From Mesonia aquimarina (GTDB taxonomy: Bacteria; Bacteroidota; Bacteroidia; Flavobacteriales; Flavobacteriaceae), in contig NZ_RCNV01000001.1 in NCBI RefSeq assembly GCF_003667275.1, positions 372,001 through 436,000 of the forward strand: a stretch of 64,000 nt of DNA, given 5' to 3'. Of this stretch, positions 14,946-19,318 are shown one piece after another. The position numbers and the translations under genes were made by a program. How positions within the stretch are numbered: the stretch's first letter is position 1; the number at the start of each line of letters is the position of its first letter. The notes beneath the pieces were generated by a model that saw nothing but the letters and a program-made list of their open reading frames with translations, did not search any database and was not told the DNA's origin.

Positions 14946-15269
14946 ATGAGTTTTCAAGAGTTACGTAATAAAAAATGGTTTAAGATTGTAAGCAACAAAT
15001 ACGTGCTTATAATCCTATTTTTTGGTGTTTGGATGTTTTTTTTAGACAGCAATTCTTGGCTTGTACACCAAGAATTAAATCAAGAAATTAACGAACTCAA
15101 CAACAACAAAAAATATTATAAAACAGAAATTAATAAAGATAAAGCTATTATTAAAAGTTTAGACGATTCTTTTGAACTTGAAAAATTTGCCCGCGAAAAA
15201 TATTTTATGAAACGCGAAAACGAAGATGTCTTTATTATTGAATATAAAGATAGCCTCAAAAAAGATTAA
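14946..15269 (+). CDS. FtsB/DivIC-type septum formation initiator
   Basis: 107-residue bitopic membrane protein of the divisome. A short cytosolic N-terminus, one membrane helix (about residues 20-37) and a periplasmic coiled coil (about 40-75, rich in Glu/Asn/Lys) precede a conserved C-terminal part with LEKFAREKYFMKRENEDVF, characteristic of the DivIC/FtsB family. The partner in division complexes is FtsL/FtsQ by family knowledge. It is followed immediately by mutA (1 base between the stop and the ATG). Confidence 0.85.
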   Translation: MSFQELRNKKWFKIVSNKYVLIILFFGVWMFFLDSNSWLVHQELNQEINELNNNKKYYKTEINKDKAIIKSLDDSFELEKFAREKYFMKRENEDVFIIEYKDSLKKD

Positions 15270-15270
15270 T

Positions 15271-16647
15271 ATGAGTAAAAAATTATTTGAAGATTTTCAG
15301 GAGGTTTCTGCTAAAGAATGGAAACAAAAAATTCAAGTAGATTTAAAAGGAGCCGATTACAAAAGTCTTATTTTTCGTAGCAACGAAGGAATTGATGTAA
15401 AACCATTTTATCATCAAGAAGATGTAACCGAAAAAAAGATTTCAGCAACACCAACCGATTGGAAAATTACAGAGCGTTTTGTAATTCATGATGAAGAAAA
15501 TATTCATATAAAGCTAAAGGAAAGCATAGATAAAGGTGCTGAAAGTTTGTGGCTTCAAATTGCTTCAGTAGAAGTCGACATCATTAAAATTCTAAAAGAA
15601 TTAGATTTAACTGAACTTCCTATATTTTTAGAATTTCAGTTTTTAAATAAAAATACAGCCGAGGAATTAAAAGCTTTTCTTCAAGATAAAAAGCATCAAA
15701 TTTCTGTCGGAATTGATATTATTGGAAATCTCGCAGAAAGCGGAAATTGGTTTAAAAACTTAAATACAGATCACGAAAAACTCGCTTCTTTTATTGAATT
15801 ACAAAATTCTATAGAAAGCGTAATTTCTATAAATACAGAAGTTTATCAAAACGGTGGTGCCAATTGTACGCAACAATTAGCTTATGCTATGGCACACGTT
15901 AATGAATATTTAAATCATATTTCAACGAATTTCTCTACGGAAGCTAAAAAATTTAAACCGACTTTTAAGGTAGCTTTAGGTTCTAATTATTTCTTTGAAA
16001 TCGCGAAACTAAAAACTTTGCGTAATTTATACGCCACCATTGCTTCGGCTTATGAAATGCCGGAAGAAATTAACATTCTCGCATTTCCTACAAAACGCAA
16101 CAAAACACTTTACGATTATAATGTAAATATGTTACGCACCACTACCGAATGCATGAGCGGAATTTTAGGCGGAGCCGATTTGGTTTGCAATTTCGCTTAC
16201 GATGAAATTTATCATCACGATAACGAATTTGGAAGAAGAATCGCCAGAAATCAGCTTTTAGTTCTAAAAAATGAAAGCTATTTTAATAAAGTAGCAAATA
16301 TTAGTGATGGGAGTTATTACATTGAAACCATTACGGAGCAGTTATCAGAAAAAGCTTTAGCAGTTTTTAAAACCATTGAAAAAGGCGGCGGTTTTCTTAC
16401 TGAATTAAAGGAAGGAACCATTCAGCGAAAAATAAAAGAAAGTGCCGATAAAGAAAAAACACAATTTGAAAATGGTGAAATCACCTTAGTCGGTACCAAT
16501 AAATATGTAAATGAAGAAGATAAAATGAAGCAAGACATTGAAGTTGACCCGTTTTTAAAACATGAAAAACGTAAAACTTTAATCGGACCCATTATTCAAA
16601 AACGGCTCGCTGAAAAAAGTGAACAAGAACGATTAGCAACCGAATAA
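15271..16647 (+). CDS. mutA: Methylmalonyl-CoA mutase small subunit
   Basis: 458-residue small (non-catalytic) subunit of the heterodimeric B12-dependent mutase that interconverts methylmalonyl-CoA and succinyl-CoA. It has the TIM-barrel mutase fold without a C-terminal cobalamin domain, and segments such as TTECMSGILGGADLVCNFAYDE and SYFNKVANISDGSYYIE near the barrel end. The ATG at 15271 starts MSKKLFEDF, whereas an upstream Met at 15226 would overlap the FtsB gene by 44 bases. The large subunit is normally next; here a GIY-YIG gene and repeats separate them. Confidence 0.93.
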   Translation: MSKKLFEDFQEVSAKEWKQKIQVDLKGADYKSLIFRSNEGIDVKPFYHQEDVTEKKISATPTDWKITERFVIHDEENIHIKLKESIDKGAESLWLQIASVEVDIIKILKELDLTELPIFLEFQFLNKNTAEELKAFLQDKKHQISVGIDIIGNLAESGNWFKNLNTDHEKLASFIELQNSIESVISINTEVYQNGGANCTQQLAYAMAHVNEYLNHISTNFSTEAKKFKPTFKVALGSNYFFEIAKLKTLRNLYATIASAYEMPEEINILAFPTKRNKTLYDYNVNMLRTTTECMSGILGGADLVCNFAYDEIYHHDNEFGRRIARNQLLVLKNESYFNKVANISDGSYYIETITEQLSEKALAVFKTIEKGGGFLTELKEGTIQRKIKESADKEKTQFENGEITLVGTNKYVNEEDKMKQDIEVDPFLKHEKRKTLIGPIIQKRLAEKSEQERLATE

Positions 16648-16677: not shown

Positions 16678-16707
16678 CGTCATGCTGAACTTGTTTCAGC
16701 ATCGCAT
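16678..16707 (+). repeat. REP-like palindromic element, copy 1
   Basis: 30-base element with an 8-bp inverted repeat (ATGCTGAA 16682-16689 / TTCAGCAT 16695-16702), flanked by CGTC and CGCAT. It matches the element at 17047-17076 at 28 of 30 positions and stands directly upstream of the GIY-YIG gene. Confidence 0.85.
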
Positions 16708-16718
16708 AATTCTTAAAT

Positions 16719-16997
16719 ATGAAATTATCTTATGTTTATATACTTTCTAATAAATATAGAACAACATTTTATATTGGAGTTACAAACGATTTAAAACAAA
16801 GGCTTTATGAACATAGTGAAGAAACCGGTTCTAAGTTTACTTCAAAATATAATATAAAAGATTTATTGTATTTTGAAAAGTTTACTGAAATAAATCAAGC
16901 TATTTTAAGAGAAAAACAATTAAAGAATTGGAAAAAGGACTGGAAAATAAATTTAATAAAAGATAATAATCCTAAACTTGAAACATTAGTCTTATAA
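16719..16997 (+). CDS. Small GIY-YIG nuclease-domain protein
   Basis: 92-residue stand-alone GIY-YIG domain of the UPF0213/YhbQ-like group. The first strand has YVYIL (replacing GIY) and FYIGVTND (YIG). A conserved Arg lies in LKQRLYEH and the catalytic-type Glu in ILREKQLKNWKKDWK near residues 66-76. It lies between mutA and mutB, which are usually adjacent, and is flanked by REP-like palindromes on both sides. That layout suggests a mobile or domesticated unit and recalls the way RAYT transposases sit between REP sequences. The nuclease fold is firm; activity and any role in spreading repeats are inference. Confidence 0.88.
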   Translation: MKLSYVYILSNKYRTTFYIGVTNDLKQRLYEHSEETGSKFTSKYNIKDLLYFEKFTEINQAILREKQLKNWKKDWKINLIKDNNPKLETLVL

Positions 16998-17009
16998 ATA
17001 TTAAGCAAA

Positions 17010-17039
17010 ATGAGAACCTGAATCAAGTTCAGGTTGACG
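17010..17039 (-). repeat. REP-like palindromic element, inverted copy 2
   Basis: Its sequence matches the reverse complement of copy 1 at 24 of 30 positions. The hairpin arms differ (AACCTGAA 17015-17022 / TTCAGGTT 17028-17035), yet the differences are compensatory, so base pairing is kept. With copy 3 it forms an inverted pair. Confidence 0.75.
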
Positions 17040-17046
17040 CTAACAA

Positions 17047-17076
17047 CGTCATGCTGAACTCATTTCAGCATCGCAT
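17047..17076 (+). repeat. REP-like palindromic element, copy 3
   Basis: Direct copy of the 16678-16707 element with two mismatches in the loop region (CTCATTT for CTTGTTT). It lies 7 bases after the inverted copy 2. Confidence 0.85.
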
Positions 17077-17132
17077 TAAATTATTAAAAAATAAAATTCA
17101 GTGTAAAAGTTAGAAAGATGTTTAAGTTTATT

Positions 17133-17191: not shown

Positions 17192-19318
17192 ATGAGCAGA
17201 AAAGACCTTCAACATATAGAACTAAAAAAAGCACCTGCAAAAAAACAAGATGCTTCCAGCTATAAAACTGCGGAAAATATTAACATTAAAAAAGTATATT
17301 CAGCAGACGATCTTGAAAATTTACAGCATCTAAATTATGCAGCGGGAATTCCGCCATATTTACGCGGACCTTATTCTACTATGTACGTAAAACGCCCGTG
17401 GACCATTCGTCAATATGCGGGTTTTTCTACAGCGGAAGAAAGTAATGCTTTTTATAGAAGAAATCTTGCCGCAGGACAAAAAGGACTTTCTGTAGCGTTT
17501 GATTTAGCAACACATCGCGGTTACGATAGTGATCATGAACGTGTAGCTGGAGATGTTGGTATGGCAGGCGTAGCGATAGATTCTGTTGAAGATATGAAAG
17601 TACTTTTTGATCAGATTCCGCTCGATAAAATGTCCGTTTCGATGACTATGAATGGTGCGGTTTTGCCAATAATGGCTTTTTATATTGTCGCTGCTGAAGA
17701 ACAAGGCGTAAAACCCGAACAACTTTCAGGAACTATTCAGAATGACATTTTAAAGGAATTTATGGTTCGAAACACCTACATTTATCCACCGACGCCTTCC
17801 ATGAAAATCATTTCAGATATTTTTGAATATACGTCTAAAAACATGCCTCGTTTCAACAGCATTAGTATTTCAGGATACCATATGCAAGAAGCGGGCGCAA
17901 CTTGTGATATTGAATTGGCTTACACTTTAGCCGACGGTTTAGAATATATCAGAAAAGGACTTGAAGCAGGAATGGATATTGACAGCTTCGCTCCTCGCCT
18001 ATCGTTTTTCTGGGCAATCGGGATGAATCATTTTATGGAAATCGCCAAAATGCGCGCCGGAAGAATGCTTTGGGCAAAATTGGTCAAACAGTTCAACCCA
18101 AAAAATTCAAAGTCCTTATCATTACGAACACATTGCCAAACAAGCGGATGGAGTTTAACAGAGCAAGACCCGTTTAATAACGTTGCCAGAACCTGTATTG
18201 AAGCTGCTGCTGCTGCTTTCGGCGGGACGCAAAGTTTACATACCAACGCTTTGGATGAAGCAATCGCCTTACCAACAGATTTTTCTGCACGAATTGCCAG
18301 AAATACACAGCTTTATTTACAAGATGAAACCCAAATTACTAAAACAGTAGACCCTTGGGCTGGAAGTTATTATGTCGAAAAACTGACTGATGATATTGCG
18401 CAAAAAGCTTGGAAACTGATTGAAGAAGTTGAAGAGTTAGGCGGAATGACAAAAGCGATTGAAAAGGGAATTCCGAAAATGCGTATCGAAGAAGCCGCGG
18501 CTAAAAAGCAAGCACGAATTGATAGCGGGCAAGATATTATTGTAGGAACAAATCGTTACCGTAGAGAAAAGGAAGACCCAATTGTTACGCTAGAAGTTGA
18601 CAATAAAACCGTTCGAAAACAACAAATTGAACGTTTAGAAAAAATAAAAGCCGAACGAAATACTTCAAAAACAGAAGCTGCTTTAGCGAAATTAACGGAA
18701 GCTGCAGAAAAAGAAGAAGGAAATTTATTAGCTTTAGCCGTAGATGCAGCAAGAGAACGAGCCAGCATCGGAGAAATTAGTATGGCTTTAGAAAAAGTTT
18801 ACGGAAGACATAAAGCACAAATTAAATCGTTTAGTGGCGTGTATAGCAAAGAAATAAAAGACGATGCTTCATTCAATAAAGCAAAAGAATTAGCAAATGA
18901 ATTCGCGGAATTAGATGGTAGACGTCCTCGAATTATGATTGCTAAAATGGGACAAGATGGTCATGATCGCGGAGCAAAAGTAGTTGCTACAGGTTACGCC
19001 GATGTTGGTTTTGATGTTGATATTGGTCCGCTTTTCCAAACACCTCAAGAAGCTGCCAAGCAAGCTGTTGAAAATGATGTGCATGTCTTAGGCGTTTCTT
19101 CGTTAGCTGCAGGACATAAAACCTTGGTTCCGCAGGTAATTGAAGAGTTAAAAAAATTAGGTCGCGAAGATATTATGGTCATTGTTGGTGGTGTAATTCC
19201 TTCAGCAGATTATGATTATTTATTTGATGCCGGCGCAGTTGCTGTTTTTGGTCCGGGTACAAAAATTAGCGATGCTGCTATTCAGATTTTACAAATTCTA
19301 ATTGATTCTGTTGAGTAA
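17192..19318 (+). CDS. mutB: Methylmalonyl-CoA mutase large (catalytic) subunit
   Basis: 708-residue catalytic subunit. The N-terminal TIM barrel (about 40-560) carries [42 protein letters not shown] and [17 protein letters not shown]-terminal cobalamin-binding Rossmann domain (about 570-708) has the DGHDRGAKV motif, whose His (about residue 591) is the lower cobalt ligand, followed by [12 protein letters not shown] and a GGVIP loop. It works with the mutA product to feed propionate carbon into the TCA cycle. The distance from mutA (544 bases) is unusual and is filled by the GIY-YIG/REP unit. The gene at 19324 follows after 5 bases. Confidence 0.97.

Follow-up and report, generated by a model that had tools for sequence, protein, structure and literature searches.

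The window, that is the whole stretch of 64,000 nucleotides of Mesonia aquimarina DNA that was analysed, contains a short stand-alone gene of a GIY-YIG nuclease that lies between two presumed methylmalonyl-CoA mutase genes and is bounded by small tagged palindromes (Table 1). We take the upstream ORF to be mutA, the gene of the small subunit of the mutase, and the downstream one is presumably mutB, coding for the large subunit. The initial annotation described three palindromic elements around a GIY-YIG gene of 92 residues, and both the coordinates and the protein family proved to be exact; the two direct copies, said to match at 28 of 30 positions, indeed do so (93%). Folding of each of the three hairpins gives a 4-nt CGTC tag, an 8-bp stem and a 5-nt loop, with DNA folding z-scores of -3.06, -3.47 and -3.62. 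The stem of the right hairpin is unlike that of the left one, yet it still pairs. Two of the three stems start with AT and one with AA, and the tails read CGCAT, CTCAT and CGCAT.

Table 1. Features of the mutA-mutB junction in the window (positions counted from the first letter of the window).
Feature	Position	Strand	Remarks
mutA-like ORF (context)	15226..16647	+	name from the initial annotation
whole hairpin-GIY-hairpin unit	16678..17039	+	362 bp tag to tag
left CGTC-tagged hairpin (REP)	16678..16707	+	tag outward; 11 nt gap to start codon
stand-alone GIY-YIG nuclease gene, 92 aa	16719..16997 (incl. stop codon)	+	PF01541 E 4.4e-15
right CGTC-tagged hairpin	17010..17039	-	tag outward; 12 nt past stop codon
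third hairpin, second left-type copy	17047..17076	+	7 nt past right hairpin
mutB-like ORF (context)	17192..19318	+	name from the initial annotation

In the passages devoted to them, the CGTC REPs are defined by one end that carries CGTC (or TGTC/CCTC) as an unpaired tag, a stem of 8-9 bp and a loop of 4-5 nt; a stem start of AT, present almost always, and a tail that is mostly CCA are usual there and not obligatory (Di Nocera, De Gregorio, Rocco 2013, PMC3733652). The window hairpins resemble this description in the YGTC tag, the 8-bp stem, the 5-nt loop and the occurrence of dispersed and paired copies, and differ from it in the tail (CGCAT or CTCAT, not CCA) and in the one stem that starts with AA, which is a minor departure. 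The same passages equate Neisseria dRS3 and Rickettsia RPE-4/RPE-6 with CGTC-REP members and state that CGTC REPs 'apparently lack a dedicated transposase' (PMC3733652). Unlike the CGTC REPs described there, for which an associated transposase gene is not reported, those of the window enclose a cognate GIY-YIG gene between two hairpins.

The pattern YGTCANNCTGAANNNNNTTCAGNNTC, which leaves two stem positions free, has 60 copies in the M. aquimarina genome and from 0 to 56 in 15 congeners, and the same pattern read backwards has no copy in this genome or in any of the 15 congeners. At the two free positions 57 of the 60 copies are complementary, against a mean of 15.8 and a maximum of 28 in 2000 runs in which the right arms were shuffled; the compensatory change of both arms, noted initially for the inverted window copy, is real and general. 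Confinement of the elements to this single place, which the initial annotation had named as an argument against a mobile unit, was not found, the family being dispersed. Among 17 loci fetched from the own genome there are eight REPIN-like pairs of 70-129 bp with tags outward, and the right end ATGA-GAACCTGAA is common to the GIY unit and seven of these eight. Several of the pairs are seen by eye inside the loop of a larger palindrome (GAGGCTGTCTAAAAAG...), and therefore the pairs are not all independent insertions. This palindrome, which is terminator-like and repeated (GAGGCTGTCTAAAAAG...CTTTTTAGACAGCCTC), holds REPIN-like pairs in its loop at L001, L002, L003, L008, L009, L014 and L016, and the two together make a composite repeat of about 150 bp (by eye).

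Six PF01541 matches are present in the own genome. Three are small GIY genes, each beside a different tagged hairpin (L018, L019, L020), one is a small GIY gene without a tagged hairpin (L023), and the remaining two are long proteins; the hairpin sets of L019 and L020 are rather alike (0.73). A second hairpin family (CTGAGCNTGTCGAAG) has 26 of its 27 own-genome copies on contig C1 (G000; 150,616 bp; L018, L020), where its GIY gene is located as well, which would be either regional crowding or an acquired region.

A mutB gene was found in each of the 16 genomes that represent the genus. The mutA-mutB gap measures 15-104 bp and contains no gene in 13 of the 15 congeners, three of which (L030, L031, L035) have at the junction a lone composite hairpin, consisting of the left outer half and the right outer half. 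In one further congener (L038, G005) other ORFs are located between mutA and mutB, and in another (L039) a mutA ORF was not found upstream of mutB and a PF01541 match is absent from that contig. The suggestion that the unit looks inserted is in keeping with the absence of the gene from the junction in all 15 congeners, read directly in 14 and from the lack of a PF01541 match on the contig in the fifteenth; fixation of the gene at this locus in relatives, the second outcome said to speak against a mobile unit, is thereby not observed. The junction of G005 carries a different insertion, of about 950 bp, with other small ORFs.

The nearest relatives of the window gene are situated in four congeners (L078, L079, L081, L103) at one other common locus, here called locus X, beside a gene that we take to encode thiamin pyrophosphokinase. 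This neighbour gene was found in seven of the 16 genomes, four with the unit and three without it, and in G012 the unit is absent from locus X next to a neighbour protein that is 95% identical. Similarity between the window locus and L078 is confined to window positions 16678-17090, and that with L081 likewise begins at 16678, where the tag starts; for L079 and L103 the starting point is the ATG and not the tag. Since the unit occupies one fixed locus in four congeners, it would move rarely. At L077 (G011:C8:13861-17085) a complete hairpin-GIY-hairpin unit is tandemly duplicated with a period of 423 nt, and the repeat starts at the tagged hairpin.

Among the small GIY genes of the genus, 13 of 65 have hairpins on both sides, 15 upstream and 21 downstream, and several small GIY clades are without tagged hairpins; the protein comparison comprised 60 proteins with a length of 75 aa or more, of which a few are cut upstream of the YVYI motif. 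None of 29 control GIY proteins (14 UvrC, 15 DnaQ-like) has a tagged hairpin within 150 nt, and within 300 nt the same 29 have one upstream and one downstream match. Palindromes of other kinds are visible beside the clades of L082, L058, L074, L085, L095, L056 and L069 (by eye; uncounted). A further small GIY clade (L074, L085, L095, L089, L101, L056, L069, L093) lies, as judged by eye, between longer palindromes of the CACTTCGAGTGA...TATCGAGAAG and TTCGATAC types, which are uncounted by the detector and may be another REP class. L083 (G014:C1:292300-296500) contains a tandem array of three genes from yet another small GIY-YIG clade (MEKYFVYI...), spaced by about 484 nt; the same terminator-like palindrome stands downstream of every copy, and tagged REPs are absent.

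The ends of such units were compared in Sinorhizobium and Shinella. Sinorhizobium meliloti Ak57 has the unit between gltA and lpxB. Sinorhizobium K101, with flanks 95-96% identical to those of Ak57, has no unit there and retains one composite hairpin. Shinella has a unit at a locus unrelated to that of Ak57, between amidohydrolase and carbon-nitrogen hydrolase genes, and the homology of the two runs exactly from CGTC to TGACA, with 301 of 387 alignment columns identical. No target-site duplication was noticed by eye at the own-genome pairs or at the Sinorhizobium/Shinella junctions. Judged by these alignments and by the mutA-mutB and locus X comparisons, hairpin-GIY-hairpin units have defined ends and are present or absent at homologous sites, as is expected of a DNA transposable element. 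Next to the full unit of Ak57 there is a further stretch between hairpins that, by eye, resembles only the 3' end of such a GIY gene and looks like what an internal deletion would leave. The GIY gene of K101 (L302) appears by eye to be flanked by CCTC-tagged hairpins, which the detector does not count.

Beyond the genus, the best 80 of at least 552 relatives were taken from a profile search across bacteria, and the sample therefore leans to close relatives; four of the 80 loci (L165, L166, L170, L200) also belong to the genus set. The detector required a YGTC tag and a stem with a minimum length of 5 bp and A as its first base, and matches with six A or six T in a row were dropped because terminators were to be avoided. 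Degenerate tags, CCTC tags and long stems escape it, and its false matches in shuffled flanks amount to 3.6% upstream and 3.9% downstream (the upstream match of L147, for example, falls in the gene start). Within these best 80 of at least 552, tagged hairpins were found at up to 200 nt upstream of 56 genes, downstream of 62, on both sides of 47 and on neither side of nine, two of which are truncated genes; no tagged hairpin was detected at the two Clostridia, the Fibrobacter and the Neomarinimicrobiota loci of this set. The loci with both hairpins belong to Bacteroidetes, Ignavibacteria, several candidate-phyla-radiation groups, Gastranaerophilales, Deltaproteobacteria, Nitrospirae, Atribacteria and Rickettsia, and this recurrence in several phyla supports the analogy, drawn in the initial annotation, with RAYT/REPIN systems that would use a GIY-YIG enzyme.

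It could be argued that REPs and small GIY genes merely gather together in variable intergenic DNA, and tagged hairpins do occur near other ORFs of the same loci too, upstream of 27 and downstream of 29 out of 295. Such a coincidence is hardly conceivable in view of the both-side counts: hairpins flank 46 of 78 GIY genes with full flanks (two loci at contig edges were dropped from the 80), as compared with two of the 295 other ORFs, for which hairpins at up to 200 nt from the GIY gene were disregarded, and with 0.13% of flanks after shuffling. Moreover, both nearest tags point outward in 30 of these 46 loci, the tag-to-tag length is nearly constant (326-377 bp in 23 of the 24 units with both hairpins close and outward), and homology ends at the tags. 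On these grounds, together with the controls, the coincidence is regarded as refuted. Of 23 units with close, outward hairpins, 21 have unlike stems on the two sides.

Further searches extend this distribution. In 20 of these genomes PF01541 gave 123 matches. Thirty loci were scanned, two of them coding for long proteins; a hairpin is present at 15 and hairpins on both sides at ten, and, as judged from hairpins and protein starts, no fewer than 11 of the 15 are already contained in the set of 80. GIY relatives occur in all 23 genomes of the genus Rickettsia (98 matches). A scan of 30 of these loci showed a hairpin at 27 and hairpins on both sides at 19; nine of the 30 have stops inside the match, and the 21 loci without internal stops all have a hairpin, 15 of them on both sides. 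Two Rickettsia GIY protein subfamilies (58-60% identity in this search) carry two different hairpins. A search of a plasmid collection matched 33 records, and 14 loci were examined, drawn from 30 among the matches listed; of 12 GIY loci scanned, 11 have a hairpin and eight have both. The Aeromonas caviae locus of this collection has both hairpins, and the detector finds none in Sinorhizobium K101 or in Rhizobium K1/93 (L293). In Neisseria gonorrhoeae (L289) dRS3-like hairpins stand at -118 and +38, in a non-canonical orientation. The Planktothrix agardhii plasmid p1 (L294) has a GIY gene with flanking hairpins, whose neighbours are an MmeI-type restriction-modification gene on one side and the DISARM gene drmA on the other.

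Hairpin and nuclease are also matched to each other. Hairpin similarity tracks protein similarity with a Mantel r of 0.54 in the 80-locus set (L165, L166, L170, L200, L100, L111 and hairpin-less loci left out), of 0.41 for pairs below 60% protein identity and of 0.68 for 17 genus loci, and in each case none of 999 permutations was as high; host relatedness contributes to these values, which are uncorrected for kinship. For ten pairs of paralogues within the same genome the hairpin similarities are just 0.24-0.73. A GIY relative at E up to 1e-25 is present in 23 of 120 Flavobacteriaceae (119 genera), and at least five hairpin copies were counted in 17 of these 23 as against eight of the other 97 (Fisher 3.6e-10), and at least three copies in 20 of 23 as against 10 of 97. 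The exceptions are two GIY-bearing genomes with zero copies and two without a close GIY that have 37 and 75. Within the genus the second hairpin family is found in six of 16 genomes; five of these six also have its GIY clade, which is absent from the remaining ten (p 0.0014). The window family shows a weaker trend with its own GIY (p 0.015), and G005, G012 and G010 lack this GIY yet have 36, 34 and 25 hairpin copies. G007 has the second-family GIY gene and a single match to the hairpin pattern of that family, located next to this gene.

One alternative is that a RAYT or another transposase moves the REPs and the GIY gene is only carried along. GTAG REPs behave so, being moved by RAYT according to the passages on them (PMC3733652). 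A search for the Y1_Tnp (RAYT-type) family gave no match at E 0.001 in the own genome and matches in five of 14 control genomes, and matched hairpins recur with the GIY gene in several phyla; RAYT was set aside as the mobiliser, and a passenger gene is very improbable altogether. The likeness to RAYT / TnpA-REP REPtrons is in the architecture, namely a small selected nuclease gene between its own REPs and gene-less paired copies elsewhere, and the difference is in the enzyme, GIY-YIG here and not an HUH tyrosine transposase (none of the Y1_Tnp family in the own genome), and in the tag, CGTC as opposed to GTAG.

The protein of 92 aa matches PF01541 and the overlapping T5orf172 and no other Pfam family. 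Its catalytic-type residues Y7, Y18, G20, R28 and E65 are kept in 70-71 of 71 alignment rows. Among the four locus X units dN/dS is 0.06-0.21 (five of six pairs defined), and between these units and the window gene it is 0.09-0.26, with dS near or beyond saturation; all nine defined comparisons are below 0.3, so by this measure the gene is under purifying selection. The AlphaFold2 model has a mean pLDDT of 89.9, and its best match is 1zg2 (UPF0213; E 2.5e-4), the sole one below 0.001, followed by Slx1-Slx4 entries and UvrC, with I-TevI at rank 17. Among solved structures 1zg2 is the best match both in sequence and in fold, which places the protein close to the UPF0213 / prokaryotic Slx1-like stand-alone GIY-YIG proteins, for which no link with REPs was found in the literature searched. 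Slx1 is described as a structure-specific nuclease of branched DNA in the part of PMC1564403 that deals with it, and the predicted Slx1-like fold suits a hairpin or cruciform substrate. A defence gene was set aside, there being no PADLOC match at E 0.001, and so was an intron endonuclease, TIGR01453 giving 22.2 bits with the 92-aa protein against a cut-off of 56.05.

The predicted fold and the purifying selection would also fit a host function, in which a structure-specific nuclease trims or resolves REP cruciforms and the flanking hairpins are binding sites for autoregulation or translation control, with no part played in a mobile element. As a rule there is one unit per family per genome, and in many units a hairpin stands 5-25 nt before the start codon, as such control would have it. 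The downstream hairpin, however, is equally constant, homology between unrelated loci stops at the tags, and the unit is present or absent among relatives; we consider a host function improbable.

The main rival is a homing-type parasite. REPs would spread by other means, and a free-standing GIY-YIG endonuclease of the homing type would cut hairpins or REPINs that lack it and be copied into them by break repair. GIY-YIG is indeed a homing-endonuclease superfamily, as its treatment in PMC1564403 has it, and the lone composite hairpins at the junction of three of the 15 congeners (L030, L031, L035), like the one retained at the empty site of Sinorhizobium K101, are what a pre-insertion target would look like. 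Deletion between hairpin arms, however, explains lone hairpins equally well, the lone hairpin match of G007 stands beside the gene itself, and the predicted fold resembles Slx1 and UvrC more closely than I-TevI. The unit shares with I-TevI-type homing endonucleases the catalytic superfamily and differs from them in that no further Pfam domain was matched in its 92 aa and the fold match is weak; the mobility of homing endonucleases is tied to DNA cutting, and for the present unit such a tie is a proposal. A homing parasite is thus unlikely, less so than the other alternatives.

We favour, as the somewhat better-than-even reading, that the unit is a compact mobile element with a small nuclease dedicated to its own CGTC-REP family, as RAYT is to GTAG REPs. 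The computed basis comprises the architecture, hairpin-protein matching, co-occurrence, tag-to-tag ends, presence/absence, purifying selection and the predicted UPF0213/Slx1-like fold; cutting and transposition by the nuclease are what we infer from it. The hairpins would form on single-stranded or cruciform DNA, and the nuclease would bind its cognate hairpin and cut it, once folded, at the YGTC tag or next to it. The DNA bounded by the tags, a stretch of about 350 bp when the gene is included and of about 80 bp in a gene-less REPIN, would then be copied or moved with the assistance of host replication or repair. The gene would mostly stay put, kept by selection, and the gene-less REPs and REPINs, derivatives of the hairpin-GIY-hairpin unit, would spread. 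There is about an even chance that this holds more widely, REP-GIY-REP being a new transposable-element class driven by a GIY-YIG Slx1-like hairpin nuclease, with the CGTC-REP superfamily (Rickettsia palindromic elements and Neisseria dRS3 among its members) as gene-less derivatives and the nuclease as the dedicated enzyme said to be lacking in 2013. A link between GIY-YIG genes and REPs was not recognised from the titles and abstracts of papers that searches of open-licence PMC full texts listed, and a report elsewhere is possible. Nor was this link seen in passages of PMC12306157, PMC6006769 and PMC5896051, which cite PMC3733652, or of PMC10928387, PMC9465073 and PMC1564403; in the matched text of PMC9465073 the two terms sought occur just in a gene table and in a reference.

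CGTC REPs constitute one of two large superfamilies of tagged bacterial REPs, and their spread was unexplained as of the account given in PMC3733652. The GIY-YIG nuclease is a candidate for the missing enzyme behind this widespread class of bacterial repeats, and a cognate, selected nuclease gene that is bounded by the repeats makes the spread of CGTC REPs directly testable. If the favoured reading is true, REP systems have at least two separate origins with enzymes that are not related to each other, the known DNA-mobilising enzymes are joined by a very small nuclease linked to hairpins, and many genes annotated merely as 'GIY-YIG nuclease family protein' would gain a role. Should mobilisation by the nuclease be shown, the unit would represent a new class of element; otherwise it would be a variant of REP-plus-enzyme systems.
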